This document shows positions 11,511 through 26,324 of a stretch of DNA of 64,000 bases, piece by piece. The DNA comes from Terriglobus albidus (lineage in GTDB: Bacteria; Acidobacteriota; Terriglobia; Terriglobales; Acidobacteriaceae), in NCBI RefSeq assembly GCF_008000815.1, contig NZ_CP042806.1, forward strand, positions 3,410,001 through 3,474,000, written 5' to 3'. Within the stretch, counting starts at the first letter, position 1. Every line of letters begins with the position of its first letter. A program made the position numbers and the translations under genes. The notes under the pieces are model-generated. The model was not told the origin of the DNA and did no database searches. It saw only the letters and a program-made list of their open reading frames with translations.

Positions 11511-12302
11511 ATGGCGCGAGGCAAAGACAAGCAGGTACAGAGGCACGAGCAGATTCTGAGTCGCTTGCAGGCAGTAGGAGAGATAACGGTTGAGGAATTG
11601 TGCTCGGAACTCGGGGCATCTGTGGTCACGATCCGTCGCGATCTTGATGAGCTCGAGCAGAGATCTCTCCTGAAGCGAACCCGTGGCGGCGCAATGCCGA
11701 TCGGGCCCCTGTTCTACGAGCCATTCAAAAAGGATCCGTCCTTCCAGGACAAGATTGGCAGCTTTGCCGAAGAGAAACGGCGCATCGCGCGTAAGGCCGC
11801 AGAGATGATCACCCCAGGCGCAACCATCGCACTTACCGGCGGAACGACGACCACCGAAATTATCCGATGCCTGAATGCGATCAGTGGGATCACGATTATC
11901 ACGAACACCGTAAACGTCGCGATGGAGCTCAGCTCGCGCAAAGACATTGATGTGTACGTCACCGGGGGACATCTGCGCGGCAACTGGTTCACACTGGTGG
12001 GCCCGCTTGCAACAGCATCGGCAGGCCTGCTGTTTGCGGACATCATGTTCCTTGGGGTGGACGGTATCGAAGTAAACCAGGGACTGACGTGTTCCCACCC
12101 GCAGGAAGCCGAGGTGCTGCGAATCCTCGCCGGCCACTCGAAACATCTCGTCGTGGTCGCGGACTCGAGCAAGCTAGGAAATGTGTCGAAGTGGCTGTTG
12201 TGTCCTACGTCCTCGATACAGGAGATCATCACCGATACCGGCGCAAAGGACGAGGCCATCAAGCCGTTCGAAGCCCTGGGGATCAAAGTGCATCGGGTGT
12301 GA
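11511..12302 (+). CDS. DeoR/GlpR-family transcriptional regulator
   Basis: A 263-residue cytoplasmic regulator. The N-terminus is the DeoR winged helix (RHEQILSRLQ, EELCSELGASVVTIRRDLDEL), followed by the sugar-phosphate-sensing domain of the ribose-5-phosphate isomerase fold (KRRIARKAAEMITPGATIALTGGTTTTEI, with the GGTTTTE effector loop, and VVADSSKLG). DeoR members usually repress sugar operons and are released by a phosphorylated sugar. It diverges from the phosphomannose isomerase/ROK pair with 162 nt between starts, so those genes are the likely targets. An AGAGGG ribosome site lies just before the ATG. It is followed by the RhaT-like transporter under a separate promoter. Confidence 0.88.
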   Translation: MARGKDKQVQRHEQILSRLQAVGEITVEELCSELGASVVTIRRDLDELEQRSLLKRTRGGAMPIGPLFYEPFKKDPSFQDKIGSFAEEKRRIARKAAEMITPGATIALTGGTTTTEIIRCLNAISGITIITNTVNVAMELSSRKDIDVYVTGGHLRGNWFTLVGPLATASAGLLFADIMFLGVDGIEVNQGLTCSHPQEAEVLRILAGHSKHLVVVADSSKLGNVSKWLLCPTSSIQEIITDTGAKDEAIKPFEALGIKVHRV

Positions 12303-12314
12303 AGAGCGCTTAAG
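12303..12314. promoter_or_regulatory. Upstream half of a paired operator (AGCGCT core) before the RhaT-like gene
   Basis: AAGAGCGCTTAA, core AGCGCT at 12305-12310, lies right after the DeoR stop codon. Its partner core is exactly 84 bp downstream (12389-12394). Equivalent upstream sites occur near 20181 and 23327, so this is one member of a three-promoter set. Confidence 0.6.
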
Positions 12315-12349
12315 TCGTTTTCATCTGCTTCCTGCGCACGCAATTTATT

Positions 12350-12377
12350 TTGACATCCGTGAAAAACTCGATCTAAT
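12350..12377 (+). promoter_or_regulatory. Predicted sigma-70-type promoter for the RhaT-like gene
   Basis: TTGACA (12350-12355) and TCTAAT (12372-12377) are separated by 16 nt. The downstream operator starts 10 nt after the -10 box, at or just past the likely transcription start, where a bound repressor would block initiation or clearance. Confidence 0.55.
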
Positions 12378-12386
12378 CTCCATCAC

Positions 12387-12400
12387 TGAGCGCTCAAATT
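12387..12400. promoter_or_regulatory. Downstream operator (TGAGCGCTCA palindrome) of the RhaT-like gene
   Basis: TGAGCGCTCAAAT with core 12389-12394 is a 10-bp perfect palindrome of the LacI-family kind (centre CG). The same word with extended arms recurs at 20260-20275 and 23421-23433. Confidence 0.65.
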
Positions 12401-12422
12401 GGGGCCAGAGGGGATGCACGTC

Positions 12423-13445
12423 ATGGAGAACGAGTTTGCGGGATTAGTTTTACTGGTGGGAGCGGGCGCCATGAATGCCTGCTTTGCGCTTCCCATGAAA
12501 CGGATGGGGAGATGGGCCTGGGAAAACACCTGGCTCGTCTGGAGTGGTTTTGCTCTTGTTCTGTTGCCCCTGTTGAGCGCGTTGTGTTTCATTCCCTCTC
12601 TTAAGGAAGCGCTCCTGGCAGGCGGGGTGAGCCTTCTGTTTCTCGTTGGTGTATGCGGATTTGCCTGGGGAATCGCTCAGGTATTATTCGGGCTCGCCAT
12701 CGACATGATTGGGGTAACCCTCTCATTTTCTATTGTGTTAGGTCTCTCCGCGGCAGTAGGGAGCATTGTCCCGTTTGTCAGGCTCGCTGTTCGTCGCGGA
12801 TTTGTCTTTACTGATTTGCTGTTTGTCGGCGCTCTGGCATTGGTACTGTCAGGAGTGTTTTTCTGCGCGTGGGCGGGCAGCGTCAGAGATCGATCACAGC
12901 CGGGAACAGAAAGCGTAAATCCGCGTTCCAGTTTCCATCGCGGGTTGATCTGTGCGGTCTGCAGCGGATTGGGCGCAGCGGCGATGAATATTGGGATCTC
13001 CCTGGGAGCTCCGATCGATCTGCAGGCGCTGGCTCACGGTGCCCAACCTGCATTGAGCCATACTGCCGTTTGGTTCCCCCTCCTGGAGGCAGGCGCAATT
13101 CCGAACCTGGCTTACTGCGCCCTTCTGCTTCGCCGAAACTCGAGTTACGGCAGGTTTAGCGCAGAACGAACCGGACGGTATTGGCTTGGCGGTTTGATTA
13201 TGGCCGTGTTCTGGTTTACAAGCAGCATCCTGTACAGCATCGGGGCGGCAAAAATGGGGCAATTCGGCCTGGCGATCGGATGGCCGGCATTCATGGCGGC
13301 AATTGTAGTCACCGCCGGGATCGTCGGCGTTGTGACCGGGGAGTGGACAGGAGCGCCTCGACGGGCCTTCAGCCTGCAGGCAACCGGTATGCTTCTGCTT
13401 CTTATTTCGATCCTTTTACTCGCGAAATCCAGTGGAAAGATGTGA
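12423..13445 (+). CDS. RhaT-like sugar/proton symporter
   Basis: A 340-residue inner-membrane protein with about ten hydrophobic helices, of the L-rhamnose-proton symporter (RhaT) family. Typical stretches are GAGAMNACFALPMKRM at the start, then WENTWLVW, FAWGIAQVLFG and SFSIVLGLSAAVGSIVP, all close to conserved RhaT segments; GEW occurs near the C-terminus. It should import a deoxy sugar or other monosaccharide with H+. ATG 12423 is preferred: AGAGGGG lies 9 nt before it, whereas a TTG at 12399 falls in the operator. A paralogue lies at 22299. Shared operators with the fucose genes make L-fucose or L-rhamnose the best substrate guesses. The specificity of RhaT homologues in this phylum is uncertain. 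Confidence 0.8.
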   Translation: MENEFAGLVLLVGAGAMNACFALPMKRMGRWAWENTWLVWSGFALVLLPLLSALCFIPSLKEALLAGGVSLLFLVGVCGFAWGIAQVLFGLAIDMIGVTLSFSIVLGLSAAVGSIVPFVRLAVRRGFVFTDLLFVGALALVLSGVFFCAWAGSVRDRSQPGTESVNPRSSFHRGLICAVCSGLGAAAMNIGISLGAPIDLQALAHGAQPALSHTAVWFPLLEAGAIPNLAYCALLLRRNSSYGRFSAERTGRYWLGGLIMAVFWFTSSILYSIGAAKMGQFGLAIGWPAFMAAIVVTAGIVGVVTGEWTGAPRRAFSLQATGMLLLLISILLLAKSSGKM

Positions 13446-13502
13446 TCCCGGAGGAAAGTTTCGGTTATGAAACTCGTTCATTCTTGCGTTTGCAATCTTT
13501 AT

Positions 13503-13547
13503 AAAGATCGAAAAATCGAGAAAGATCAATTTAATACGATCTTTTTA
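13503..13547. repeat. AAAGATC repeats with hairpin, possible terminator or operator
   Basis: AAAGATC occurs twice as a direct repeat (13503-13509, 13521-13527), and its complement GATCTTT lies at 13538-13544 followed by TTTT. The second and third copies can form a 7-bp stem with a 10-nt loop and a T-run, so it may terminate the transporter transcript. The AT-rich setting about 95 nt upstream of a receptor gene also allows a regulatory role. Confidence 0.4.
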
Positions 13548-13639
13548 TTGCATTAAGAACATTAAAAGCCTTACATTTCTCCTGCTTCGTAAGGGTCGCG
13601 TTTTCGGACTCCCGAAGGTCTGCGAAGGAGGCTAGGAAG

Positions 13640-16600
13640 ATGAATGTCGGAAAAGTTATCCGAACAAAAGCAATAACGCGGCTCCTCACACTATGGGCCG
13701 TATCCTGCATGATGGTCGGTGCTCTGCCGTATCGTCTGCATGCACAGACGGCGAATGCGTCGCTGTCAGGACACATAACGGATCCGTCGGGCGCGGTAAT
13801 CCCGGATGCCGATATCAGCTTGACCGAAACTGCGACCCACGTCACAAGCACAACAAGATCGAATCGCGAAGGCCTCTATACTTTTCCGTCCGTCAAACCT
13901 GGCGAATATTCCATGACAGTCAAGAGAGCCGGGTTTGGAGACGCGAAGATCAATGGCCTATCGCTCGCTGTTCAGGGCAATGTGCTTCGAGACGTCTCGT
14001 TGGCGCCAGGCTCGACAGCAGAGACCATCACGGTCCACTCCGAAACGGAAGATCTGGTGCAAAAGACCAGTTCTGAGCTCGGTACAGTGATTGACCAGAA
14101 GGCGATTCATCAGTTGCCGCTCAATGGAAGGAACTTCACGCAACTGCTGACTCTTACACCTGGAGCGACGCCTATCAGCACATCACAAAGCGCGGGCGTT
14201 GGCGTAAACGATCTGGCGAATCTTAGTGTTCCCACGGCAAGCGTCGCGCAACCTTCCATCCAGGGACAGACGAATCGTTCCAATCTGTATCTGCTTGATG
14301 GTGTTGTCAACACTGAGATGACCGGCAGCGTTTATGTCATTCCTCCGATTGTCGATGCAATGCAGGAATTCAAAGTGCAATCGCATGACGACAAAGCCGA
14401 GTACGGAAGCGTCCTGGGCGGCGTTATCAACGTCGTCACACGAAGTGGCACGAACTCGCTGCACGGCGCGGCATGGGAATTTGTAAGGAACAACATCTTC
14501 GATGCCCGCGATACGTTCCGCGATCAGAACAACACCGGCCCTTCTGCGTTCCGCCAGAATCAGTTTGGCGCCACTGTTGGAGGCCCGGTATTCCTGCCAA
14601 AGATCTATGACGGACGCAACCGCACCTTCTTCTTCTTCGGATATGAGGGATGGCGTTATCGGCAGGCAGCCCAATCGCGTTACCGCGTCCCCACTGACGC
14701 TGAGCTGGGAGGGGACTTCTCACGTTCGATTCTGTCGAACAATATCTACGATCCTGCGACTACTACCGGCACAGCAAGCTCCGGCTACACCCGTACTGCC
14801 TTCGCAGGACGGGTAATTCCTTCAAACAGAATCAACCCGACAGCCGCCAACTTCATCAAGACCTATTACGCGCGGCCAAATCTAACCGGAGATCCGCTGT
14901 ATAACGCGATCGTAACCCGTTCCAACTCTAACGATTCCGACCACTATATGATTCGTGGCGACGAACAACTGGGAAGCAGGAACGCCATCTTTGTTCGTTA
15001 CGATCGCCTCAATGTAACAAGCCTGTCGCCCGCATCAATCAGCCTGAGTACGGGAGCATCGGTGCCCGCAGAGAATCTGGGTGTGGGATGGACCGGAGTC
15101 CTGAGCAGCAAATTGCTCGCCGATGTTCGATTCGGAATCAGCAAGAGACCATTCTCACGATTCCAGCAGGACAGCGCCGGTCTCGATCCGATGAAAGGGC
15201 TTGGCTTTGTCAGCGCCGGAGGAACGACGTTCAGTCTAAGCACGCCGTATTCCGGTGGAGGTATGCAGACAGCAAATACGATCGAAAGCCCTGTATATAA
15301 CCTGTCGCCGAGTCTCACCTGGGTCGCCGGCAATCATAATTTGAAGTTCGGCATGCAGTACATCAAGCAGGGCAACGATTCCAATAGCCCGGCGTACGGC
15401 GGCTATACCTTCAGCAATGATCAGACAAGCGATCCCAGACAGGTCGGTACTACCGGAAACTCGCTTGCATCTGCGTTGCTGGGACTTCCATCGCAGATTA
15501 ACAACACGACAACGGTGAGCAACAGCAATCGCGTGTCGACGTATTCCTTCTATGCCCAGGACGTTTGGGCTCTCAATAAGAAAGTTACGATAACGTACGG
15601 TCTTCGCTTCGATCATCGTCGCTCGTTCTCTCCGTCCGGCTCGACGGTTGTGAGCGGTCTAACAACAGACGGTCTGTGGTGGATTGGTTTAGATAAATTG
15701 CCGTCTGCCTGCACTCAGACTGGTCAGAGCCCCTGTATTCCTGGTGACGGAACACTCGGTTCCATCAAAAATGGCGACAAGATTATGCTGTCGCCCTACG
15801 GCCGCTCCTGGGGACCTGTTCCTATATGGGGCGACTTCGGGCCTCGCATTGGTATCGCCTGGCGTATTACCGACAAGGTTGTGCTTCGTGGCGGATACGG
15901 CATCGTTTATGACCCGCTCATGGGTTTCGAGCAGGATTGGAAGGGGTTTGCTGGATCATGGCCCGCAACCGGATCGGTCACAGCTTCGCTGGCCGCCAAT
16001 CAGGTAGGATCCCCCGCAACGCCGATCGAATCGACATTTAGTTCGGTAGGCCGCGCCGTTCCCGCATCGGACCCGTGGGATACAGTGACCTGGTTTATGG
16101 ACCCCAAAATTCGTGATCCGCGGTCACAACAATACAACGTTACGGTGGAGCAGCAGATAGGCTCCAACATGGCTCTATCGGTCGGCTACGTGGGAAGCCA
16201 CACGGACCGGATGAGCGTTACAGGTATCTTCAACACCGCTCAGATTGCAGGCCCTGGAACACCAGCTCAGGTGAACGCGCGCAAGCCCTTCCCCTGGGTC
16301 ACGGCAACTCCTTTCATGAGTACCGACCGGGGATATGCAGATTACAACTCGCTGCAAGTGAAACTGGATCGCAGGTTCTCCAACGGGCTCCAGTACCTTA
16401 TCTCGTACACGTTCTCAAAATCGATGGATGCCGGTGGCAGCGGTCTTTTCGATGTAGAGAATGGACCGGGCGGCAGCTCTGCTCTTCAGAACTACTATGA
16501 CGTCAAAGAGAGCCGCAGTGTTTCGTCGTATGACATCCCGCACTTTCTTTCGATGGCTGGTCAGTATGAGCTTCCCTTCGGACGTAACAAACGCTATCTG

Positions 16601-17077
16601 ACACATGGACTGGCGAGCTATGTCCTCGGAAACTGGCAGATGAACGCTGTAGCTCAAGTTCGTTCGGGACAGCCGTACAATCTAACCGTCTCCGGCGATG
16701 TCGCGAACATCGGAACATCGTTCTCCTGGTGGAACTACGCGCGGCCCAATCAGATTGGCAACCCAAAGCCGGCGAATCCAACCCCACTCAAGTGGTTTGA
16801 CCCCGCGGCGTTCTCCGTGCCGGTCAACTCATACGGAAACTTCCGGCGTAATTCTCTCCGGACCTCACATGTAGCAACAGCGGATGCTTCGTTGTTCAAG
16901 AACTTCCCATTCAAAGATCAGCTCGCATTGAATTTCAGGGCTGAGATCTTCAACATCTTCAATATCCAGAACTATGGTGCTCCCAATACGACGATTGGGG
17001 ATCCCGGGGCCGGCCGAATCACCTCAAATGTTCTGCCTCCACGGCAGATTCAATTGGGGCTGCACCTGAGTTTCTAG
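13640..17077 (+). CDS. TonB-dependent receptor, Oar-like, with carboxypeptidase-regulatory-like N-terminus
   Basis: A 1145-residue outer-membrane receptor expected to take up oligosaccharides with TonB energy. A signal peptide ends near HAQ (residue 36). Next is a CarboxypepD_reg-like beta domain (ASLSGHITDPSGAVIPDADI), then a plug-like region with the QLPLNGRNFTQLLTLTPGA hallmark of the acidobacterial Oar group. A 22-strand-type barrel follows, with a second-last strand LNFRAEIFNIFN and terminal Phe (LHLSF). GGAGG lies 10 nt before the ATG. It stands between the RhaT-like transporter and an exported glycosidase and ends in its own terminator. The ligand is unknown; the neighbours suggest a fucose-containing or similar glycan. 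Confidence 0.9.
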   Translation: MNVGKVIRTKAITRLLTLWAVSCMMVGALPYRLHAQTANASLSGHITDPSGAVIPDADISLTETATHVTSTTRSNREGLYTFPSVKPGEYSMTVKRAGFGDAKINGLSLAVQGNVLRDVSLAPGSTAETITVHSETEDLVQKTSSELGTVIDQKAIHQLPLNGRNFTQLLTLTPGATPISTSQSAGVGVNDLANLSVPTASVAQPSIQGQTNRSNLYLLDGVVNTEMTGSVYVIPPIVDAMQEFKVQSHDDKAEYGSVLGGVINVVTRSGTNSLHGAAWEFVRNNIFDARDTFRDQNNTGPSAFRQNQFGATVGGPVFLPKIYDGRNRTFFFFGYEGWRYRQAAQSRYRVPTDAELGGDFSRSILSNNIYDPATTTGTASSGYTRTAFAGRVIPSNRINPTAANFIKTYYARPNLTGDPLYNAIVTRSNSNDSDHYMIRGDEQLGSRNAIFVRYDRLNVTSLSPASISLSTGASVPAENLGVGWTGVLSSKLLADVRFGISKRPFSRFQQDSAGLDPMKGLGFVSAGGTTFSLSTPYSGGGMQTANTIESPVYNLSPSLTWVAGNHNLKFGMQYIKQGNDSNSPAYGGYTFSNDQTSDPRQVGTTGNSLASALLGLPSQINNTTTVSNSNRVSTYSFYAQDVWALNKKVTITYGLRFDHRRSFSPSGSTVVSGLTTDGLWWIGLDKLPSACTQTGQSPCIPGDGTLGSIKNGDKIMLSPYGRSWGPVPIWGDFGPRIGIAWRITDKVVLRGGYGIVYDPLMGFEQDWKGFAGSWPATGSVTASLAANQVGSPATPIESTFSSVGRAVPASDPWDTVTWFMDPKIRDPRSQQYNVTVEQQIGSNMALSVGYVGSHTDRMSVTGIFNTAQIAGPGTPAQVNARKPFPWVTATPFMSTDRGYADYNSLQVKLDRRFSNGLQYLISYTFSKSMDAGGSGLFDVENGPGGSSALQNYYDVKESRSVSSYDIPHFLSMAGQYELPFGRNKRYLTHGLASYVLGNWQMNAVAQVRSGQPYNLTVSGDVANIGTSFSWWNYARPNQIGNPKPANPTPLKWFDPAAFSVPVNSYGNFRRNSLRTSHVATADASLFKNFPFKDQLALNFRAEIFNIFNIQNYGAPNTTIGDPGAGRITSNVLPPRQIQLGLHLSF

Positions 17078-17093
17078 CGTCGATGTAATTCTG

Positions 17094-17134
17094 GACAGGC
17101 AATCGGCTGCATTGCGGTTGCCTGTCATTTGTTT
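17094..17134 (+). terminator. Rho-independent terminator after receptor gene
   Basis: A 12-bp stem (17094-17105 with 17115-17126, one G-T) with a 9-nt loop is followed by ATTTGTTT. It begins 17 nt after the receptor stop codon. Confidence 0.8.
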
Positions 17135-17164
17135 CGAACCTGAGGGGGAAAAGACAGATCCATC

Positions 17165-19402
17165 ATGAAGGACGAAGTGCGGACTCAAAAGCAAGTACGA
17201 TCGAAAGCAACCCTTAGCCGTCGCGAGTTCTGCGAAGCCGGTGCTTCTGCGCTCGCGATGGTGCTCGCGCCGGCCAGATCGCTTGCTTCGGTCGGGGAAC
17301 CCAGATTCACGGGCGCGTCGAGGATTCCCACACTTGATGAGCTGGGGACGGAATGGCTTGATTGCAGCCAACTGGCACATATGCCTTCGCTTCATAATTT
17401 TCATGAGATGGCCGCCTGCGCGCCGGACCTGGTTGGTGTGAATTTCCTTCCGGGAGGGCAGCTCTACGAAGGTTCAGGACCTCGTTGGTATATCTACAAC
17501 ACGCTGCCGTTATGCCGCATGTCGATTGATGGCAAGGTATATGAAAGTTCGAATTGCAGATGGTTTGCGTACCAGGCGGTGAGGCGGGTTCAGGCCGCGG
17601 ATCTGGAAATAGTGACGACGAATCGACTCATTATGGAGGATTCAACCATCTTATGGCGGGTCAGGTTTAAGAACACGAGTGCTACTGTCAGGACCATCCG
17701 GATATCGATCGATACAGATGGCGTCCGCAGGGAAGTCAAAGGAGACGTTCAGCTCGTGGCTGGATCGCAGAAATCGGAGATGAAAGCGATCTATCAATTT
17801 CTCGATTCGCCCCTCAAGAGCACGGAGGGCAACCGGGTGGAATGGGAGTTGAACCTACCGCCGAAAGGGCAGCGTGAACTTCGCTTCTTTATGAAAGCGA
17901 GTGTCGACGATAGCGTGTCGTTGGATACAGCACCCGCATTGTGGTTTGAGACGGAGTGGACCCGCGCAAAGAGAGTATGGACAGATCGCTGGAACAGCGC
18001 CTTCACTCCCGGCAACAATTTCTTTTCCGGCAACGCGCCCACGTTGTTCGCGAAGGACTCCGCAATCAGCGAGATTTATTATCGAAGCGTTCTGACTCTC
18101 ATGGTCCTGCTCCGAACCAATCTCTGGAGTGACAGGACATTTATCACCAGTGGAGAGCGAGCGAAGGGCACTGTCTATTACTGGGATACCTCTCTGTTTT
18201 CGACCTTGTTTGCGATGCTCGAACCAAAACAGATGAAAGAGCAGATCAAGCTCTTCCTGGAACAGGATCCGCACGAGGACGCGGTGATCGTATTCAAAAC
18301 GAAACGGCCGGCCTCGCCTGAGAAGATCAAAACGCCGGAAGGATGGGATCTGAGAGGCTATGCCGCGAACGATCTCTCCATCTTCCGGCTGACCTGGTCC
18401 TATCTGTCCGTGACTCAGGACAAGGCGTTCCTGAATGAGAAGATCGCGGACCAGACGGTAAAAGAGCGCCTGCAGGTTCTCGCCACAGACTGGAAGAAGT
18501 TGTTACGCGAGCCGTCGGACAAACTTTCGGATTACGGAGAGGCGCCTAACCTTCTGGAATGTGTGCCTACGTATATCCACAAGGTCCCATCCTTTAATGC
18601 GGCAAATGCCTGGATGATGCGTGAGTATGCCGACATCATAGAGTTCGCCGGGAATCACAGCGAAGCGAACGAACTTCGCCAGGAAGCCACCGAGATGGTC
18701 AAGGCTGTGATGACGTTGTATGAGCCTGGCAAAGGCGTATGGGCAAGCGTGCATCGGGATGGCAGCCGGGTTGAAATGCGGCATTGCTATGACTTTGCAA
18801 CGGTCGGAAGGTTCATGGCCGCAGACCTGCCTCCAACCGTTCGTCGAGAGATGGTTGAGTTTGTTCAGCGCGAGTTGCTCACGGAGAAATGGATGCGTGC
18901 TCAGTCCATGCTGGATGTAGCGGCTGCCAACTCTGACCGTCCTGACCATGGTCCGATGGGAGCGTATGACGCATGGCCTGCGGTTACGGTCGATGCCATG
19001 TGTTCCCTCGGATACTGGAAGGACGCCATCCTTTTTTTGAGGAGAACCAGGGCGGCGATCTACGAAGGTGTTTACGCGCAGGCGCGTGAGTTTTATGGGC
19101 CAAGGCGGCGCGAGTACGACGCACCGATCCGGATCGCGCAACGTGAGGGCTGCATGCGGGAATGTACCGGCGGAGGTGCGTTTGCCGAGACCATCATCAA
19201 TACGCTGTTCGGCTACATTCCGAAGCTGGGGCGGCAATTGACGCTATCCAACCCTGAAACACCACGAGGGTTTGAGGGAGAGTTACATCATGTGCGCTTT
19301 GGAGGCGACCAATTCGCAATCCAATCTGATAGCGATGGTCTGCATTTGAGAAAAGAAGTTAACGCCAGATCTCGTTCGCACGTTCCGCGAACCGAAGAAT
19401 AG
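17165..19402 (+). CDS. Tat-exported six-hairpin-type glycosidase-like protein
   Basis: A 745-residue protein with a twin-arginine signal (LSRREFCEAGASALAMVLA, cleavage near residue 42). The middle and C-terminal parts read like an (alpha/alpha)6 barrel as in GH15/63/78-type enzymes: WDTSLFSTLFAMLEPKQ, RGYAANDLSIFRLTWSYL, NAANAWMMREYADI, YDAWPAVTVDAMCSLGYW and a late GGGAFAETIINTLFGYIP. Residues 60-260 look like the beta-sandwich that often precedes such barrels. Carboxylates in AYDAWP and ECVP are possible acid/base candidates, but I cannot assign a family. It follows the receptor and overlaps the 3' end of the convergent GntR gene by 44 nt. Its place in the locus suggests it trims an imported or surface glycan. 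Confidence 0.6.
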   Translation: MKDEVRTQKQVRSKATLSRREFCEAGASALAMVLAPARSLASVGEPRFTGASRIPTLDELGTEWLDCSQLAHMPSLHNFHEMAACAPDLVGVNFLPGGQLYEGSGPRWYIYNTLPLCRMSIDGKVYESSNCRWFAYQAVRRVQAADLEIVTTNRLIMEDSTILWRVRFKNTSATVRTIRISIDTDGVRREVKGDVQLVAGSQKSEMKAIYQFLDSPLKSTEGNRVEWELNLPPKGQRELRFFMKASVDDSVSLDTAPALWFETEWTRAKRVWTDRWNSAFTPGNNFFSGNAPTLFAKDSAISEIYYRSVLTLMVLLRTNLWSDRTFITSGERAKGTVYYWDTSLFSTLFAMLEPKQMKEQIKLFLEQDPHEDAVIVFKTKRPASPEKIKTPEGWDLRGYAANDLSIFRLTWSYLSVTQDKAFLNEKIADQTVKERLQVLATDWKKLLREPSDKLSDYGEAPNLLECVPTYIHKVPSFNAANAWMMREYADIIEFAGNHSEANELRQEATEMVKAVMTLYEPGKGVWASVHRDGSRVEMRHCYDFATVGRFMAADLPPTVRREMVEFVQRELLTEKWMRAQSMLDVAAANSDRPDHGPMGAYDAWPAVTVDAMCSLGYWKDAILFLRRTRAAIYEGVYAQAREFYGPRRREYDAPIRIAQREGCMRECTGGGAFAETIINTLFGYIPKLGRQLTLSNPETPRGFEGELHHVRFGGDQFAIQSDSDGLHLRKEVNARSRSHVPRTEE

Positions 19403-20030
19403 CATTGCGAACGGTTAGTTCGGCCAGCGACGCTTCGCCTTCAGCAATAGCGCGTACCATTTCGCGATGGCGCTCCAGATCTGGTTTCCAGGCTGTCGCG
19501 AGCGTCGCATCGCCGCCCAGGCGCATCGATACGAAAGCGAAGAGCGGCACCAGAAGCATGCGCGCGTGTTGAGAAAGTACTTCATTCCCGGGCAGCTCGC
19601 AGAGCTGCAGATGAAACGCGAGATCCGCCTCAAGCAGGGCAGCGAGGTCTCTATTCTTGATGGACTTCGACATTTGCGTGATCGCAGCTTCGAGAGTGGA
19701 AAGATCCTGGCCCGACTGGGCAAGGATGCGGGCGGCCGTTCCCTCTAATGCGGCACGAACTTCGTAAATCTGAGCGACCTTACCGGGAGAATACGAGGTG
19801 ACACGAGCACTGCGCCCCGAGTTCTTGGTGGCGAAGCCTTCGGCAATGAGGATGTTGATGGCCTCACGCACTGACGTCTGAGCGACTCCGAATCTACTTG
19901 CCCAGAACTTCTCAACGATGCGAGAGCCCTGTGAGAGCTTGCCAGAGACGATCTCGTCTTTTAGTCGTGCTGCAAGTGAGGATTTGATCAGGAGAGGCGG
20001 ACTGGCGACAGTTTTCTTTGATGCTTTCAT
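19359..20030 (-). CDS. GntR-family regulator, FCD (FadR-like) type
   Basis: A 223-residue regulator: N-terminal GntR winged helix (LAARLKDEIVSGKL, RIVEKFWASRFGVAQTSVREAINIL) and an all-helical FCD effector domain (YEVRAALEGTAARILAQ, DLAFHLQLCELPGNEVL, HREMVRAIAEGE). The conserved Asp/His metal-site residues of FCD domains are seen in DLAFH and ERHREM. FCD members commonly sense sugar acids. It diverges from the L-fucose dehydrogenase/fuconate dehydratase operon with 275 nt between starts, so it likely regulates that operon with a fuconate-type ligand. The AGCGCT palindromes between them look more like LacI-family sites than GntR sites, so a second regulator may act too. Confidence 0.85.
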   Translation of the reverse strand: MKASKKTVASPPLLIKSSLAARLKDEIVSGKLSQGSRIVEKFWASRFGVAQTSVREAINILIAEGFATKNSGRSARVTSYSPGKVAQIYEVRAALEGTAARILAQSGQDLSTLEAAITQMSKSIKNRDLAALLEADLAFHLQLCELPGNEVLSQHARMLLVPLFAFVSMRLGGDATLATAWKPDLERHREMVRAIAEGEASLAELTVRNAILRFAERANEIWR

Positions 20031-20177
20031 TCAGATACCGGTGAATCGTGGTCAAAGACGGGTCGCCTTCGACAGAATCATCATTGCATTGCGTCGATGC
20101 TAGCACACAATCCCTGGACGAACGCTGGTCTGCAATACTGGCTGGACGCGCAGCGCCATCACGGGGCGTCGCCTGAA

Positions 20178-20189
20178 GAGAGCGCTTAT
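20178..20189. promoter_or_regulatory. Upstream half of paired operator before the L-fucose dehydrogenase operon
   Basis: AGAGAGCGCTTAT, core AGCGCT at 20181-20186, lies 84 bp from the downstream core at 20265-20270. This is the same spacing as at 12.3 kb. Confidence 0.6.
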
Positions 20190-20252
20190 GCGTCTATCGC
20201 CCTGCTCCTAAATCAGTAAATGTAGCGATATTTTCGGAAACAATTTCCGGGC

Positions 20253-20281
20253 TAGACATATTTGAGCGCTCAAATGTATAT
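20253..20281 (+). promoter_or_regulatory. Promoter with a 16-bp perfect palindromic operator inside its spacer
   Basis: TAGACA (20253-20258) and GTATAT/TGTATA (20275-20281) form a plausible promoter. Between them lies ATTTGAGCGCTCAAAT (20260-20275), a perfect 16-bp palindrome and the best copy of the motif in the window. A protein bound there would exclude RNA polymerase. Confidence 0.7.
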
Positions 20282-20305
20282 TGCTCTTCGTCGGAGCGTG
20301 AGCGC

Positions 20306-21073
20306 ATGTCTGGAAAGCTGTTTGGCAAATGTGTGGTGGTTACGGGCGCTGCTCAGGGCATCGGTATGGAGTGCGCGCGCGCCTATCACCGCGAGGGAGC
20401 TCGAGTTGCAATTCTGGATGTATCCCTCGAACAAGGCGAACAAGCTGCAGCCGCAATCGGTCCTGAGACTATCTTTGTGCACTGTGACGTCGCCAGTGCG
20501 GCGTCGGTGGAAGCCGCGAGATCGGCGGTGCTGGCTGTGTTTGGCCGGGTCGACGCCCTCCACAACAATGCCGGAATCGCAACCCCGTCAAAGCCTCTGC
20601 ATGAGACGGATGAAGAGGAATGGGACAAGCTCTTCCAGGTGAATCTCAAGTCTGTCTTGTGGACAACGAAGCACTTTTATAAGGACCTGAAAGCGACGAA
20701 AGGTCCAATTCTGAACACGGCAAGCATGGTCGGTCTCATCGGCCAGCCAAACCATGCAGCTTATGTCGCGACAAAGGGAGCTCTGATCTCACTTACGAAG
20801 GCGATGGCTTTGGACTATGCCACGGATGGAATCCGGGTCAACGCCATCTGTCCAGCAGGTGTGTGGACTCCGATGCTGCGGCGATGGGCCGCCGAGCAGG
20901 AGAACGAAGCGGATATCACGTCCTACCTTGATCGGATTCATCCCTTAGGCAATTGCCCGGAGGGCGATGTCATCGCCGATGCTGCGGCATTTTTGCTTTC
21001 AGACTCTGCCCGCTTTATTACCGGCTGCATCCTGCCGGTAAGCGGCGGTGCTGAGCTTGGCTATCGACTTTAG
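20306..21073 (+). CDS. SDR dehydrogenase, probable L-fucose dehydrogenase (HSD17B14-like)
   Basis: It probably oxidises L-fucose to L-fucono-lactone with NAD(P)+. A 255-residue classical SDR: TGAAQGIG at 13-20, NNAG, catalytic S140, Y153, K157. The C-terminal half strongly recalls human HSD17B14, an L-fucose dehydrogenase: GxIGQ then YVATKGA, DGIRVN, a WTP after the PG-motif position, and the C-terminal GGAELGY. In the PG motif the glycine context is PAGVWTP, a small change. The ATG at 20306 lies 24 nt after the predicted -10 region. The L-fuconate dehydratase gene starts 9 nt downstream, which supports the substrate. No lactonase gene is visible close by. Confidence 0.72.
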   Translation: MSGKLFGKCVVVTGAAQGIGMECARAYHREGARVAILDVSLEQGEQAAAAIGPETIFVHCDVASAASVEAARSAVLAVFGRVDALHNNAGIATPSKPLHETDEEEWDKLFQVNLKSVLWTTKHFYKDLKATKGPILNTASMVGLIGQPNHAAYVATKGALISLTKAMALDYATDGIRVNAICPAGVWTPMLRRWAAEQENEADITSYLDRIHPLGNCPEGDVIADAAAFLLSDSARFITGCILPVSGGAELGYRL

Positions 21074-21081
21074 GAGAGAGT

Positions 21082-22302
21082 ATGTATATCGAGACGATTT
21101 CCTCCGAGGACTGCCGCTTCAAGCTTGAAGCGGGCGCAGGCTCGGACGCAGTGCACTCCGACCCCGAATATTCCTTTGCTGTAACAAAGCTGACTCTCGA
21201 TGCCGGCGTTACTGGAACCGGACTGGTCCTCACCATGGGGCGGGGCAATGAGCTGGTGTGCAACGCAATCAATCTTCTCAGTCTCCCATTGGCAGGCCGG
21301 GATATTGAAAACCTGATGTCGGATTTTGGCCGGACATTTCGCGTGCTGGCCGATGACGCACAGCTTCGCTGGCTGGGGCCGCATAAAGGAGTTGTTCATC
21401 TTGCGCTTGCTTCCATCACCAACGCATGTTTTGATGCCTGGGCGAAAGCAAGACGCGTTCCGCTCTGGAAGCTTCTTCTCTCGCTCTCTCCGGCTGAAAT
21501 CGTATCTCTACTGGATCTCAGCTATCTGGAAGATGTACTCGACACCACCTCAGCCACAGAGCTACTGACGGCGCAGATCTCGTCTCGTCGCACGAGGGAA
21601 GATGTTCTGACGGCCGGCTATCCGGGCTACGACACAAGTGTTGGCTGGTACCAATACAGTTCTGCTCAGATTGAGGAGAGAGTCCGTCGCAGCGTTGATG
21701 CGGGCTTTGGTGCCTTCAAGCTGAAAGTCGGCGGATCGCTCGATCATGATCTCTCACGCGCACGAGGATTGCGGCAGGTTGCCGGGGATAAGGCCACCAT
21801 CATGTTTGACGCAAACCAGCAATGGAACTATCCGCAGGCTTTAGCCGCCTGCAAAGAGCTTGCAGCGCTAGCTCCACTTTGGATTGAAGAACCCACTCAC
21901 CCCGATGATGTCTTCGCTCACAAGTCTTTGGCGAATGCTGTAGCGCCCGTAGCATTAGCCCTCGGCGAGCACGTCCCCAACCGGGTGATCTTTAAAAATT
22001 TCCTTCAGGCGGAATGTGTCAAATTCCTGCAACCAGACTGCACGCGCCTGGGAGGAGTGAGCGAGTTTCTAACGGTAAGCTTGCTGGCAAGAAAATTTGA
22101 TGTGCCTGTAGTGCCTCACGTGGGCGATATGGGGCAGATTCATCAGCACCTCGTACTTTTCAATCATGTGGCGATGGGACATCCAAGGACGTTTCTCGAG
22201 TACATTCCCCACTTGAGCACGCACTTTGTGAATCCGGCGGTAGTCAAGGATGGACGGTATCAAACACCACAAGAGCCCGGAAGTAGCAGCGACCTGATAT
22301 GA
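21082..22302 (+). CDS. L-fuconate dehydratase (enolase superfamily)
   Basis: It should dehydrate L-fuconate to 2-keto-3-deoxy-L-fuconate with Mg2+. The 406 residues align by eye with the Xanthomonas-type FucD: GRGNE, GRD, QLRWxGPxKGVxHLA, the SxGWxxYS stretch and KLKVG. Catalytic and metal residues visible are K213 and K215 (KLK), D243 (DANQ), E269 (EEPT), E296 (GEH) and H346 (VPH). The N-terminal capping domain is complete, and the protein is slightly shorter than the usual 430-440 because the C-terminus ends soon after the HFVDP-like HFVNP motif. It is in one operon with the dehydrogenase before (9 nt) and the transporter after (4-nt ATGA overlap). Confidence 0.85.
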   Translation: MYIETISSEDCRFKLEAGAGSDAVHSDPEYSFAVTKLTLDAGVTGTGLVLTMGRGNELVCNAINLLSLPLAGRDIENLMSDFGRTFRVLADDAQLRWLGPHKGVVHLALASITNACFDAWAKARRVPLWKLLLSLSPAEIVSLLDLSYLEDVLDTTSATELLTAQISSRRTREDVLTAGYPGYDTSVGWYQYSSAQIEERVRRSVDAGFGAFKLKVGGSLDHDLSRARGLRQVAGDKATIMFDANQQWNYPQALAACKELAALAPLWIEEPTHPDDVFAHKSLANAVAPVALALGEHVPNRVIFKNFLQAECVKFLQPDCTRLGGVSEFLTVSLLARKFDVPVVPHVGDMGQIHQHLVLFNHVAMGHPRTFLEYIPHLSTHFVNPAVVKDGRYQTPQEPGSSSDLI

Positions 22303-23297
22303 CATCCCATACCCTCGGAGTTGCCTTAGCGCTGTTGGGTGGAATTCTCGTTGGCAATTGTATGTCGCCTCTCGGGCGGATCAAAGGCTGGAGATGGGAG
22401 TGCACCTGGCTCGTATTTAGCTTCGTATCGCTGATCCTGGTCCCGGCTGCACTCTCCCTCTATCTCGTGCCAGACTGGCCAATGCTGTATTGGGGTTTGA
22501 GCCTCCACGACTTGTATCCTTCATTTGCATTTGGCTTCGGCTGGGGCGTGGCGCAGGTGCTCTTTGGCGTCGCTGTCCAGCGGCTTGGAATGGCACTGGG
22601 ATTCACCCTCGTCGTTGGACTGGGTACGGTCTTCGGTATGCTCGTCCCCTTCCTGGCGCACCAGCACGGGGATCTGTTCCATGGCAAAGGTCTCCTGCTG
22701 TTGTGTGGCTGTCTGCTGATGATCCTCGGCGTGGGGTTGTCCGGCTGGGCGGGGCAGATGAGAGACTCCCGGAAAAACGCACCTGCCCAAGCAAGCTACC
22801 TGTCGGGATTCATCATTGCCACCATTTCAGGTGTGTTGTCCTCGATGTTGAACCTGTCCTTCTCGTTTGGCGGAGCGATGAATGAAGCCGCCGTCAAACT
22901 GGGGGCGCATCCGGCCGTTGCGGTTGTCGCTGTCTGGCCGGTGGCCCTTGCCGGAGGCTTCATTCCGAACTTCGGTTATTCCTTCTATCTACTGGTCCGA
23001 AATCGCAGTTGGGGCGATCTAAGAAAGCCTCTCCCGGACGCACTGTGGAGTGGACTGATGGGCCTCCTATGGATTTCAGCGGTTGTGATCTATGGATTGG
23101 CAACCTATCAGCTAGGCCCTCTAGGCGACTCTGCTGGATGGGCTATCTATCAGATCACGATGGTCCTTACTGCGTGCGTGGCGGGTGTTATCTCGGGGGA
23201 GTGGAAGAATTCTTCACGAAGCGCACTCGCGATCTTTGTACTCGGTATCATTCCGCTCTTATTGGCGACAGTGGTGCTCGCCCAGGCGACGAAATAA
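22299..23297 (+). CDS. RhaT-like sugar/proton symporter, probable L-fucose importer
   Basis: A 332-residue inner-membrane protein with about ten hydrophobic helices, paralogous to the protein at 12423: compare FGWGVAQVLFGVAVQRLG with FAWGIAQVLFGLAIDMIG, and GGILVGNCMSPLGRIKGW with the equivalent N-terminus. It belongs to the RhaT family. Its ATG overlaps the dehydratase stop codon (ATGA), a sign of translational coupling. As the last gene of the dehydrogenase/dehydratase operon it most likely imports L-fucose (or a related deoxy sugar) for that pathway. E. coli uses FucP of a different family, so this would be a non-orthologous solution. Specificity is inferred from context only. Confidence 0.8.
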   Translation: MTSHTLGVALALLGGILVGNCMSPLGRIKGWRWECTWLVFSFVSLILVPAALSLYLVPDWPMLYWGLSLHDLYPSFAFGFGWGVAQVLFGVAVQRLGMALGFTLVVGLGTVFGMLVPFLAHQHGDLFHGKGLLLLCGCLLMILGVGLSGWAGQMRDSRKNAPAQASYLSGFIIATISGVLSSMLNLSFSFGGAMNEAAVKLGAHPAVAVVAVWPVALAGGFIPNFGYSFYLLVRNRSWGDLRKPLPDALWSGLMGLLWISAVVIYGLATYQLGPLGDSAGWAIYQITMVLTACVAGVISGEWKNSSRSALAIFVLGIIPLLLATVVLAQATK

Positions 23298-23324
23298 GCT
23301 GTCTGGTGTTTATTTTTTCTGAAA

Positions 23325-23336
23325 AGAGCGCTTAAA
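23325..23336. promoter_or_regulatory. Upstream half of paired operator before the alpha-L-fucosidase gene
   Basis: AAGAGCGCTTAA, core 23327-23332, is almost identical to the site at 12303. Its partner core lies 96 bp downstream (23423-23428), about nine helical turns. Confidence 0.6.
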
Positions 23337-23379
23337 TTATTCCCTGCCACAATACGCTCCCGGAAATTACCGAATTTGT

Positions 23380-23433
23380 TTGACATATGTGTCTAACTCT
23401 CTCTAGGCTTTTCGTGATTATGAGCGCTCAAAT
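23380..23433 (+). promoter_or_regulatory. Promoter and start-codon-overlapping operator of the alpha-L-fucosidase gene
   Basis: TTGACA (23380-23385) with TCTAGG (23402-23407) after 16 nt is a moderate promoter. The palindrome TGAGCGCTCA plus AATT (23421-23433) begins on the T of the proposed ATG at 23420, so the operator is partly coding. No good ribosome-binding site is seen just before this ATG, which leaves leaderless translation or an upstream start as possibilities. Confidence 0.55.
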
Positions 23434-24775
23434 TGTTTCTCGACGTCGTTTCCTTCAACTGGCATCTGCTGCCGGCGCCTTCTCCATGCTTCCGCGCTTC
23501 GCGCATGCGAGTGACCTCGATGACCCTCGGATGGCATGGTTTCGCAAAGCAAAATTTGGCATGTTCATTCACTGGGGCCCGTATTCCCTGGCTAGCGTGG
23601 AAGCATCATGGCCCATCATTCGACCCTCAGAGAAGTGGAAGATTAGCGAAGCCGAGTATCGAGCGCTTGCGAAGCAGTTCAATCCCGTAAAGTTCGATCC
23701 CGATCAATTTATCGACGTAGCGCGTAGCGCTGCTCAGCAATACATGGTCATCACCACGAAGCACCATGACGGCTTCTGCATGTTTGATTCGGACTACACG
23801 AACTACAAAATTACAAAGACGCCCTACGGGAAAGATATCCTGGCCATGCTCTCTGAGGCTTGCAAAAGGCGTGGGATGCCTCTTGGCTTCTACTACTCGC
23901 CCCCGGACTTCACGCATCCTGGGTTCCGCGACACATCGAAGTTGACGAAAGAGAACTGGGATGGGGAGCCGGATCGTCCCGAGTGGTCGTCGTACCTCTA
24001 CTATATGGAGCTGCAGCTCACGGAACTGTTGACACGGTACGGAGACTGCAAAGTCATATGGTTCGATGGTCTGGAGCATCAGCGGAAGTACGATGGTCAA
24101 CGATTTCTTAACCTGATCCATAAGCTTCAACCCAACACCCTGGTCAACGATCGCATTGGAGTACGTGGCGACTTCGTGACTCCGGAACAGTTCATCCCAA
24201 AAGCGATTCCCACAAAAGATGTGGAAGTGCATGCGATCGATACAAATGTCGTATTTCATGACGGTGTGCCACCGGCCAGCGAGTTTCAGTTGTGGGAGAC
24301 CTGCATGACGATTAACAACACCTGGGCTTACAACGCGAATGATCATAACTTCAAATCCACCCAGGATCTCATTCGTGCGCTCGTTGAGGTTGCCAGCCGC
24401 GGCGGAAACTTCCTCCTCAATGTTGGACCGCAACCAGACGGTCTCGTACAGCCCGAGTTTCAGGAACGCCTTCGGGGCATTGGCAATTGGCTGGAAGTCA
24501 ATGGCGAATCAATCTTCGACACCACGTACGGCCCCATTCAAAACGTAGCCGGAGTCCGAACAACCTCCGGACAAGACCATGTCTATGTGCATCTGTTAGA
24601 GCCGGCGAACGGGACGCTCGCGCTTCCAGATTTCAAGCGGAAAGTTGCCTCCGTACGGTCGTTAGCTACAAATCAAATGTTGCGGTTCTCGCAGAACGAA
24701 AGATCCATAACGGTCAATTTGGCTCAGCCGTTTCAGGCTGAGAATGTGAATGTGCTTGCACTCAGAGTTATCTGA
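23420..24775 (+). CDS. Tat-exported GH29 alpha-L-fucosidase
   Basis: It hydrolyses terminal alpha-L-fucose from glycans outside the cytoplasm. The 451-residue protein starts with a twin-arginine signal (SRRRFLQLASAAGAF, cleavage near AHA, residue 30). The GH29 TIM barrel follows: KFGMFIHWGPYS, KHHDGFCMFDS, GFYYSP, and the nucleophile region VIWFDG with D216. A short C-terminal beta-sandwich ends the chain. The acid/base residue of GH29 varies and is not assigned. An upstream in-frame ATG at 23387 would add MCLTLSRLFVI, so translation from there is an alternative. The shared operator ties its expression to the fucose catabolic operon just upstream. Confidence 0.88.
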   Translation: MSAQIVSRRRFLQLASAAGAFSMLPRFAHASDLDDPRMAWFRKAKFGMFIHWGPYSLASVEASWPIIRPSEKWKISEAEYRALAKQFNPVKFDPDQFIDVARSAAQQYMVITTKHHDGFCMFDSDYTNYKITKTPYGKDILAMLSEACKRRGMPLGFYYSPPDFTHPGFRDTSKLTKENWDGEPDRPEWSSYLYYMELQLTELLTRYGDCKVIWFDGLEHQRKYDGQRFLNLIHKLQPNTLVNDRIGVRGDFVTPEQFIPKAIPTKDVEVHAIDTNVVFHDGVPPASEFQLWETCMTINNTWAYNANDHNFKSTQDLIRALVEVASRGGNFLLNVGPQPDGLVQPEFQERLRGIGNWLEVNGESIFDTTYGPIQNVAGVRTTSGQDHVYVHLLEPANGTLALPDFKRKVASVRSLATNQMLRFSQNERSITVNLAQPFQAENVNVLALRVI

Positions 24776-24872: not shown

Positions 24873-26324
24873 ATGCAGACAAGACGGGAGATCTGTAAAT
24901 GGATGGCGGGCGCGGCGTCACTTGCTTTGCCCTCAACGGGGGCACTGGCGCTTACCGAAGGTGCGGCTAAGCCTGTAGTGAGACGGGGTGAGCCGCTGGT
25001 CGATCTCCAGCAGCGGTTCATTGATCTGCGCTTTGGGATGTTTGTCCATTTCAATATGGCGACGTTCCAGGACCGTGAGTGGGGCGATCCGGATTCACCA
25101 GCCACGTTGTTCCATCCGACGGCGCTGGATACGGATCAATGGGCTGAAGCTGCGAAGTCCGCCAACATGACATGGGGATGCCTCACCACGAGGCATCACG
25201 ACGGCTTCTGCCTCTGGCCAACGAAGACGCGAGGTGCGAGCGTTGCCCAAACGACGCACAAGATCGACATCGTACGGCGGTATGTCGATTCGTTCCGTAA
25301 GGCCGGCCTGCGTGTGGCCCTGTATTACTCGATCCTGTCGTTACGGGACGACATTCGGCACTTCAACATTACGCCGGACAAGATCCAACTGGTGAAAGAT
25401 CAGCTTACGGAGCTTTTCAGCAATTATGGCGAGATCGATGCGCTGATCATCGATGGATGGAATGCGCCCTGGAGCCGGATTGCGTATGAGGAGATGCCGT
25501 TTCCGGAGATCTATGGGCATATCAAGTCGATGCAGCCAAACTGCCTGGTATCGGATCTGAATGCGAGTCAGTTTCCTTCCGGCGGTTTGTACTATTCGGA
25601 TTTGAAGGCGTTTGAGCAGAACGCAGGGCAGAAGGTTCCTCAGGAGAGTGACCTGCCGGCATTTTCATGCGTAACGATTACGCCCGGCTGGTTCTGGAAA
25701 CAGGCCGATGTTCAGGCGCCTCTGAAAGCGACAGAGACCGTGGTGAACGAGTGGCTGATACCGCTCAATAACCGGCACTGCAATCTGATTCTGAATGCGC
25801 CGCCAGACCGTAGTGGTCAGCTTGCGCCGAATGTCGTGGCCCGGCTCAAGGAGATTGGGCAGGCATGGAAGCACTCGGGACCGATGCAGAAAGTGCACGA
25901 ACATATCGTGATTACGACACCGAATCTGGCGGCGGCAAAGCCGATTCATGCGAGTTCGTATCCGGATACGGTGGGACCGGACCTGGCGAATGACGGCAAC
26001 TATCACTCGAGCTGGAATGTAGGAGAAGGGAATCGCTCTGGATGGCTTGAGGTGAACTTTGGCAGGCGCGAGAGCTTCAACGTACTGTCACTGGTTGAGC
26101 CGGTGGGACAGCGGGATGGCTACAGCGAGAGTCGCATTGCAAGCTACAAATTCGAAGCATGGAATGGCTCGGGTTGGTCAACAATCGTTGAGAGTAAGGA
26201 TCGGAATGCTGTGAGAGTCCACCGCATTTCACACGTGATCGCTTCGCGCGTGCGGGTCTCGATCGAGGGAAGCCACGATGATTTTCATGTTGTGGATCTG
26301 GGAATCTATAACGAGCCATCGTAG
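24873..26324 (+). CDS. Exported GH29 alpha-L-fucosidase with C-terminal F5/8-type-C-like domain
   Basis: A second GH29 enzyme of 483 residues, clearly diverged from the first. A signal peptide with MQTRREICKWMAGAASLAL suggests Tat export (RR at 4-5). Barrel motifs: RFGMFVHFNMATF, TRHHDGFCLWPT, ALYYSI and ALIIDGWN with probable nucleophile D194. Residues from about 350 form a galactose-binding-like module (ASSYPDTVGPDLANDGN, SGWLEVNFG, SYKFEAWNGSGW, RVRVSIEG), the F5/8 type C fold common in GH29 enzymes. It follows the first fucosidase by 97 nt without an obvious operator, so it may be read through from that promoter. Different linkage specificity for the two enzymes is likely but not shown. 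Confidence 0.85.
   Translation: MQTRREICKWMAGAASLALPSTGALALTEGAAKPVVRRGEPLVDLQQRFIDLRFGMFVHFNMATFQDREWGDPDSPATLFHPTALDTDQWAEAAKSANMTWGCLTTRHHDGFCLWPTKTRGASVAQTTHKIDIVRRYVDSFRKAGLRVALYYSILSLRDDIRHFNITPDKIQLVKDQLTELFSNYGEIDALIIDGWNAPWSRIAYEEMPFPEIYGHIKSMQPNCLVSDLNASQFPSGGLYYSDLKAFEQNAGQKVPQESDLPAFSCVTITPGWFWKQADVQAPLKATETVVNEWLIPLNNRHCNLILNAPPDRSGQLAPNVVARLKEIGQAWKHSGPMQKVHEHIVITTPNLAAAKPIHASSYPDTVGPDLANDGNYHSSWNVGEGNRSGWLEVNFGRRESFNVLSLVEPVGQRDGYSESRIASYKFEAWNGSGWSTIVESKDRNAVRVHRISHVIASRVRVSIEGSHDDFHVVDLGIYNEPS

Follow-up and report, generated by a model that had tools for sequence, protein, structure and literature searches.

We analysed a 64,000-nucleotide stretch of the Terriglobus albidus genome (contig NZ_CP042806.1, positions 3,410,001 to 3,474,000), hereafter the window. 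Judged by homology, it holds a cluster of L-fucose oxidation, uptake and fucosidase genes, and three promoter regions of this cluster carry paired palindromes with an AGCGCT core. From comparative sequence evidence, we consider it highly likely that these sites are operators of the GntR/FCD regulator encoded within the cluster, and this protein is probably an autoregulated fucose repressor with a non-canonical, often paired operator. Comparison with relatives reveals the motif, its pairs, the predicted regulon, the association with the GntR gene and, in most orthologues, a site at the gene's own start.

Paired sites in the fucose cluster

The core coordinates (12305/12389, 20181/20265, and 23327/23423) confirmed the three AGCGCT pairs that the preliminary description had placed at 12.3, 20.2, and 23.4 kb, with spacings of 84, 84, and 96 bp. 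In the 64-kb window, TGAGCGCTCA and AGAGCGCTT presented three exact copies each, all at the three pairs, and the reverse complement of AGAGCGCTT had no match. An additional AGCGCT pair (23662/23726, 64 bp) lay within the fucosidase gene and lacked the flanks. The six putative operators, with their state in G271 –a genome of another genus–, are as follows:

12301..12314, no strand: upstream (weaker) operator of RhaT-like transporter 1, GAAGAGCGCTTAAG; kept in G271
12385..12398, no strand: downstream operator of RhaT-like transporter 1, ACTGAGCGCTCAAA; kept in G271
20177..20190, no strand: upstream (weaker) operator in the divergent region between the GntR and fucose-dehydrogenase genes; kept in G271, where the spacing is 96 rather than 84 bp
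20261..20274, no strand: main operator, perfect TTTGAGCGCTCAAA, in the TAGACA-18-TATATT spacer; kept in G271
23323..23336, no strand: upstream operator of the fucosidase gene, AAAGAGCGCTTAAA; kept in G271, where the spacing is 86 rather than 96 bp
23419..23432, no strand: downstream operator of the fucosidase gene, TATGAGCGCTCAAA, which includes the likely start codon; from the sequence

Pfam and solved-structure searches agreed with the gene functions proposed before, namely two RhaT-like transporters, L-fucose dehydrogenase, L-fuconate dehydratase, and fucosidase:

11511..12302: DeoR/AgaR-like regulator (Pfam/NCBIfam searches); its end coincides with the start of the first upstream site
12399..13445, plus strand: RhaT-like sugar-proton symporter 1, open reading frame (ORF) from the first start codon; Pfam RhaT 1.2e-21
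13640..17077, plus strand: TonB-dependent-receptor-like outer-membrane protein (Pfam search), possibly on the transcript of transporter 1
19359..20030, minus strand: GntR/FCD (FadR-subfamily) regulator, the proposed reader of the sites; Pfam GntR 1.6e-11, FCD 4e-19
20306..21073, plus strand: short-chain dehydrogenase/reductase (SDR), probable L-fucose dehydrogenase; best solved relatives are HSD17B14 chains
21082..22302, plus strand: L-fuconate dehydratase (FucD) of the enolase superfamily; near full-length matches to 4a35 (ENOSF1) and to the L-fuconate dehydratase entries 2hne/1yey
22299..23297, plus strand: RhaT-like sugar-proton symporter 2 (RhaT2); Pfam RhaT 7.6e-34
23420..24775, plus strand: alpha-L-fucosidase-family protein that starts MSAQ, with a twin-arginine-like leader recognized by eye; a longer ORF runs from 23387
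24873..26324, plus strand: second fucosidase-family protein, with an F5/8 type C domain, probably on the transcript of the first

HSD17B14 is reported to be the mammalian L-fucose dehydrogenase. The regulator combines an N-terminal GntR winged helix-turn-helix (44.1 bits, cut-off 27) with a C-terminal FCD domain (69.7 bits, cut-off 24.3), which places it in the FadR (FCD) subfamily of the GntR family.

Each downstream site had been described as lying in or just after a promoter. This held at 20.26 kb, where the operator sits within the spacer of the one sigma-70-like promoter that the scanner returned (TAGACA-18-TATATT); the scanner gave nothing at the 12.3 and 23.4 kb pairs, though a TTGACA lies upstream of both.

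In the 6,405,582-base genome, the spaced pattern GAGCGCT-N62..92-GAGCGCTC matched four times forward and once in reverse, and three of the five matches were the window pairs; a reversed-pattern control had no match. The 14-mer occurred at 0-1 mismatch in two places genome-wide, both within the window, and with two mismatches in 11 other places outside it. At up to three mismatches it was near the control level (195 vs. 145 matches, little excess). Thus, the signal consists of strong sites and their pairing. A possible further regulon member at C1:3377866 (score 18.2), where a gene begins that is CoA-transferase-like by eye, was set aside as probably due to chance, and the next candidate in the genome (16.3) lay inside a gene.

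The motif follows the local GntR gene

The GntR gene had matches in 47 of the 398 sampled genomes of the family, and five of these (28-37% identity) were treated as non-orthologues; in a phylum sample, matches outside the family were just 32-36% identical. We fetched 51 regions around GntR matches, with 42 loci (L159-L200) as the main set; owing to low identity or short contigs, L201-L209 entered neither the matrix set nor the site counts. For a permutation test on 41 orthologue loci, the window and L159, from its 87% relative, were left out. In this test, TTTGAGCGCTCAAA presented 36 matches in 25 of the loci, against a mean of 1.7 and a next best of 9 among 300 permuted palindromes (true word included).

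A site scoring at least 13 was present in 40/42 loci of the main set. With a home-made ORF caller applied to the loci and the window, 100 such sites fell between genes or no more than about 150 bp from an ORF start, and 3 lay deep in genes. We then counted sites of this score within -250 to +60 of a start, leaving out ORFs that start up to 450 bp from the start of a named gene. Among the orthologue loci, 26 of 37 fucosidase-homologue starts carried a site, as did those of SDR (8/23), TonB (8/26), FucD (6/35), and RhaT2 (1/25), and none of the 235 other ORFs did. The GntR gene itself had a site at its start in 25 of the 42 orthologues, which together with the window pair in the GntR/SDR divergent region is the arrangement expected of autoregulation or a divergon. 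The proposal that the sites define a fucose regulon and behave like operators is upheld, and the pairs are kept in relatives.

The six orthologue loci left out of training all presented sites above 15, and nine distant FCD loci (about 2.5-3.6 kb) presented no site scoring at least 11. Within the loci set aside for low identity or short contigs, L201 had a site of 14.4 and L204 one of 18.9, and the non-orthologues L205-L209 had none of at least 13. Four stretches with a GntR gene and no fucose homologues (L176, L191, L194, and L195) all retained sites. For L191 and L195, however, the contig carries another GntR copy, accompanied by fucose genes, at a distance of up to about 20 kb (L197 and L196, respectively), and the L194 genome has a further GntR copy on a different contig (L174).

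The same association was seen from the side of the fuconate dehydratase, with 80 loci fetched from genome contigs, 36 of them with acidobacterial titles (L074 and L076, with unclassified titles, belong to neither acidobacterial group). TTTGAGCGCTCAAA at up to two mismatches was present in 10/16 loci where the local GntR has an orthologue and in 3/64 where it has none (p=1.1e-6); among the acidobacterial loci the counts were 10/16 and 2/20 (p=0.0014). A matrix score of at least 18 separated these acidobacterial loci more sharply (12/16 vs. 0/20, p=1.5e-6), with a matrix partly trained on the same genomes. At up to three mismatches the contrast over the 80 loci was smaller (15/16 vs. 31/64, p=0.001). 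One locus counted as lacking GntR, L104, is the same DNA as L200, and the GntR gene lies just past its end; once it was re-assigned, the counts became 10/17 vs. 2/19 for the word and 12/17 vs. 0/19 for the matrix. The two data sets overlap, since 13 of the 42 GntR loci share DNA with fuconate-dehydratase loci, and the left-out locus L262 and L115 are the same DNA.

Conservation of the pairs, spacing, and looping

An absence of conserved pairs in relatives had been named as a finding that would speak against the sites. The pairs were conserved in G271, whose regulator is 87% identical and whose gene order is the same: in the alignment, all six sites form conserved islands in diverged promoter DNA. 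Their spacings went from 84 to 86, from 84 to 96, and from 96 to 86 bp, and the steps of +12 and -10 are near one helical turn. An exact search for the pair pattern in 200 family genomes matched three of them (the own genome with its three pairs, G193 and G029 with one each), and the control gave one match of the same size, in G126; with just 3/200 genomes matched, the exact pattern misses orthologous, more degenerate pairs.

Across the window and the orthologues, the spacings of 43 pairs ranged from 52 to 164 bp. Pairs of up to 120 bp (n=23) concentrated at one phase of the 10.5 bp turn (R=0.61, naive p=0.0002), a result that leans on the recurrent 62-65 bp spacing; the helix phasing proposed earlier was not significant over all pairs (p=0.11) or over distinct spacings (p=0.62) and is suggestive only. 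When pairs serving two divergent genes were split off, the same-promoter pairs gave p=0.001 (n=35) and p=0.08 for the 24 unique values; this set includes three weak upstream sites added by hand (two of the window, one of L159) that are absent from the 43 pairs. We did not retain phasing as proof of looping, as its significance was lost once repeated spacings were removed.

Pairs at 62-63 bp recurred at promoters of different genes (GntR, SDR, FucD, and TonB), which makes common descent of one promoter a hard explanation. They were found in:

L168, L172, L173, L175, L178, L179, L185, L188, L197, L199, L200, L260, and L262: 62-63 bp operator pairs

We judge a short loop between paired operators plausible, with about even chances from the sequence comparison. 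The GntR protein could also read the sites without any loop, the members of a pair acting independently as two dimers, with the upstream site serving activation, the divergent gene or as a decoy. This we rate only a little lower, somewhat under an even chance: the wide range of spacings and the lack of significant phasing among distinct values favor it, whereas the weak upstream sites are kept at promoters with no divergent gene (transporter 1 and fucosidase), distances change by 2, 12, and 10 bp relative to G271, and the 62-63 bp spacing is repeated at unrelated promoters.

Observations against the GntR reading

Besides the lack of significant phasing over all pairs and over distinct spacings, several results weigh against the GntR/FCD protein as reader of the sites. 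The GntR start of the window has no strong site, the nearest being the weak upstream site 153 bp away; for this reason, autoregulation in the window is suggested by its relatives. Two of the three upstream sites of the window score below 7 with the matrix. No site of at least 13 was found in L166 (55% identity, best 11.4) or L198 (42%), nor in L202 and L203 (39-40% identity, 3 kb contigs). In whole genomes, the word at up to one mismatch was present in 28/42 GntR-positive genomes vs. 119/356 others (p=6e-5), an association that is weak because of background word matches. Moreover, the motif is of an unexpected type: TTTGAGCGCTCAAA, in the window and the orthologues, does not present the TKGT/ACMA boxes of the FadR subfamily, and it resembles a LacI operator such as TGTGAGCGCTCACA, which the excerpted text of PMC4746261 predicts for the LacI-family regulator AraQ and likens to LacI-family motifs.

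A LacI-type looping repressor was indeed the reader first proposed, and since no gene with a LacI helix-turn-helix was found in the 64 kb, in agreement with the same description, it would have to be encoded elsewhere. The window's own genome has 15 LacI-family genes. The motif is a CG-centred palindrome, like LacI operators, and its core TGAGCGCTCA is identical to the symmetric lac-type core. The predicted AraQ motif also counts for this alternative, and in Granulicella mallensis (L049/L160) and G158 (L161) the SDR gene is closely preceded by a LacI gene. However, the motif followed the local GntR/FCD gene and not LacI genes, and no LacI gene was linked to it in the window, the fuconate-dehydratase loci or the GntR loci. 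LacI homologues were present in 5/42 GntR loci, with a site at none of seven LacI starts, and none of the 15 own-genome LacI loci had a site of at least 13. The contrast between two genomes points the same way: in Bryocella elongata (L054), such a LacI gene immediately precedes the fuconate dehydratase gene, and the 21 kb contain neither a GntR orthologue nor the motif; Granulicella sp. S156 (L050), in contrast, combines the GntR gene with a perfect motif, and nothing there matched the 15 LacI queries.

Recognition residues add a secondary argument. In the portion of PMC2978694 that sets out the LacI code, a Tyr-Gln pair corresponds to symmetric TG at positions 5/4, as in a symmetric TGAGC site, and Arg to G at position 6. 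Tyr-Gln was absent from all 15 own LacI proteins, whose translations gave the pairs PM, LS, TM, SA, LG, CA, TV, IV, AG, IA, VA, KM, IG, IG, and PS, and position 6 of the motif is T in the matrix, where the code links Arg to G. The argument is secondary because this code was worked out for TVSR helices, present in 5 of the 15. From co-occurrence, recognition residues, and the Bryocella/S156 contrast, we regard a LacI reader as very unlikely.

In three genomes, the fucose genes directly follow a LacI gene that shares about 64% identity with the LacI of L032, from the own genome:

L160 3245-4264 (same DNA as L049): Granulicella mallensis
L161 3506-4504: G158
L054 8760-9782: Bryocella

In these genomes, it is a second or replacement regulator.

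The DeoR-family protein of 11511-12302 adjoins the first pair and is the other local candidate, as its gene ends at the start of the first upstream site. Its homologue was present in just 2/42 GntR loci (and in two of the six left-out loci, L258 and L259), and neither of the two DeoR starts had a site. The motif persisted where the fetched stretches had no DeoR gene, the search having covered these stretches rather than whole genomes. With the gene missing from 40/42 GntR stretches, we set it aside as a reader that we find extremely improbable.

Recognition residues and related systems

If the GntR/FCD protein reads the sites, its operator departs from the habits of its subfamily. The FadR-subfamily consensus is made of TKGT/ACMA boxes with 2-3 nt between GT and AC, usual and not universal, as NanR and BioR are named as exceptions in the sections of the GntR motif survey on this subfamily (PMC4494728), which also describe double sites with near-constant spacing. 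The recognition helix VAQx(S/T)(I/V)RE(A/S) was found in 43/43 proteins, and a later orthologue, L262, has VSQ. Gln51 of the regulator aligns with the guanine-reading Arg45 of Atu1419. We rejected this Gln as the explanation of the unusual motif: it is shared by unrelated FCD proteins that lack the motif and cannot, on its own, determine the operator.

The second-best solved relative (1.1e-13) is Atu1419 of Agrobacterium fabrum (VanR group of the FCD proteins, GntR superfamily; PDB 6z74), which has the same GntR/FCD architecture. As presented in the excerpted text of PMC7797058, it is a tetramer that represses a catabolic pathway as well as its own gene. Its palindrome is accompanied by a degenerate one at a distance of 109 bp, and looping was proposed for it. 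In contrast, its palindrome is ATGTATACAT, read by Arg45, instead of TTTGAGCGCTCAAA with the aligned Gln51, and its effector is a folate, whereas that of the window regulator is probably a sugar acid.

Among paired-operator systems, lac and gal have paired operators and form loops. LacI/GalR proteins (LacI, Bifidobacterium AraQ) share the CG-centred palindrome GAGCGCTC with the system of the window; they differ in that a LacI gene is not the associated one here and that the motif has T, not G, at position 6. The Escherichia coli FadR-subfamily sugar-acid repressors DgoR, UxuR, and LldR are likewise local FCD regulators of acid pathways, and LldR reportedly has two operators. DgoR has two inverted repeats, and the motifs of all three are of the TKGT-N2/3-ACMA type (PMC4494728). 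The FucR regulons of Halomonas and relatives are similar in gene content, with L-fucose/L-fuconate oxidation genes and predicted FucR sites in the excerpted text of PMC5507952; they belong to other phyla.

A model of regulation

From this comparison, we infer binding, repression, an effector and, with less confidence, looping. When fucose catabolites are lacking, the regulator would bind the strong downstream palindrome TTTGAGCGCTCAAA and block transcription. The bound palindrome would lie in the -35/-10 spacer at the dehydrogenase operon, shortly after the TTGACA box at transporter 1, and over the start codon at the fucosidase. The weaker upstream copy, 84-96 bp off, may offer a second contact, most simply for two dimers or one tetramer bridging the sites into a small loop. 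Release would probably be by an acid intermediate, e.g. L-fuconate or 2-keto-3-deoxy-L-fuconate.

Operator over the likely fucosidase start codon

The most likely fucosidase start is 23420, where ATG AGC GCT CAA encodes MSAQ, followed by a twin-arginine-like leader recognized by eye. As the operator contains this likely ATG, the first residues (MSAQ/MSAY/MSAH) would be dictated by the operator. Frames that begin MSA from such a site were present in 21 of the 42 loci L159-L200; the frames counted exceed 350 codons and were filtered for a leader that contains arginine. Among the fuconate-dehydratase loci, fucosidase homologues above 300 bits, with starts assigned by eye, presented the MSA start in 7/8 cases with GntR vs. 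0/5 without it (7/9 vs. 0/4 after L104 was re-assigned). On this evidence, the MSA start is a footprint of the GntR/FCD regulator in coding sequence.

Biological significance

The system of the window appears to be a conventional sugar regulon whose switch sequence is unusual. A wider proposal is that a GntR/FCD clade of this acidobacterial family arrived by convergence at a lac-like symmetric operator and at lac-like repression through short loops (62-63, 84-86, 96, and 105 bp), with an operator built into the fucosidase start codon that fixes the first residues; this we offer as speculation, and we lean against it as a whole.

In the literature searched, with subscription journals and regulon databases outside the search, TTGAGCGCTCAA had no occurrence, and titles and abstract starts yielded no description of an acidobacterial fucose GntR regulon. 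Table 2 of the GntR motif survey (PMC4494728) has no Acidobacteria among the analysed factors. The present results assign a sequence-defined operator and, with high likelihood, its regulator to L-fucose use in one Acidobacteria family. They also advise caution, as a palindrome that looks like a LacI operator does not identify a LacI regulator, and for an FCD protein they offer a set of naturally varying operator spacings that can be easily tested.

Distribution of the cluster and neighbouring genes

The gene order DeoR-RhaT1-TonB-745-aa protein-GntR-SDR-FucD-RhaT2-fucosidase (11511-24775) is common to the window and L159 of G271, and the cluster proteins of both are 75-91% identical. In the window's genus, all 18 further genomes sampled lack the GntR gene. 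Thus, the cluster is patchy and was possibly moved horizontally, given its presence in another genus.

The 745-aa protein (17165-19402) had no Pfam or NCBIfam match at 0.001, and its homologues lie near DeoR homologues in L159, L169, L258, and L259. At the beginning of the window, 289-1509 encodes a regulator with a XylR-type periplasmic-binding-like domain and an AraC helix-turn-helix, next to sugar genes for an SDR, a pyrroloquinoline quinone (PQQ) dehydrogenase, and an IlvD/EDD-type dehydratase.

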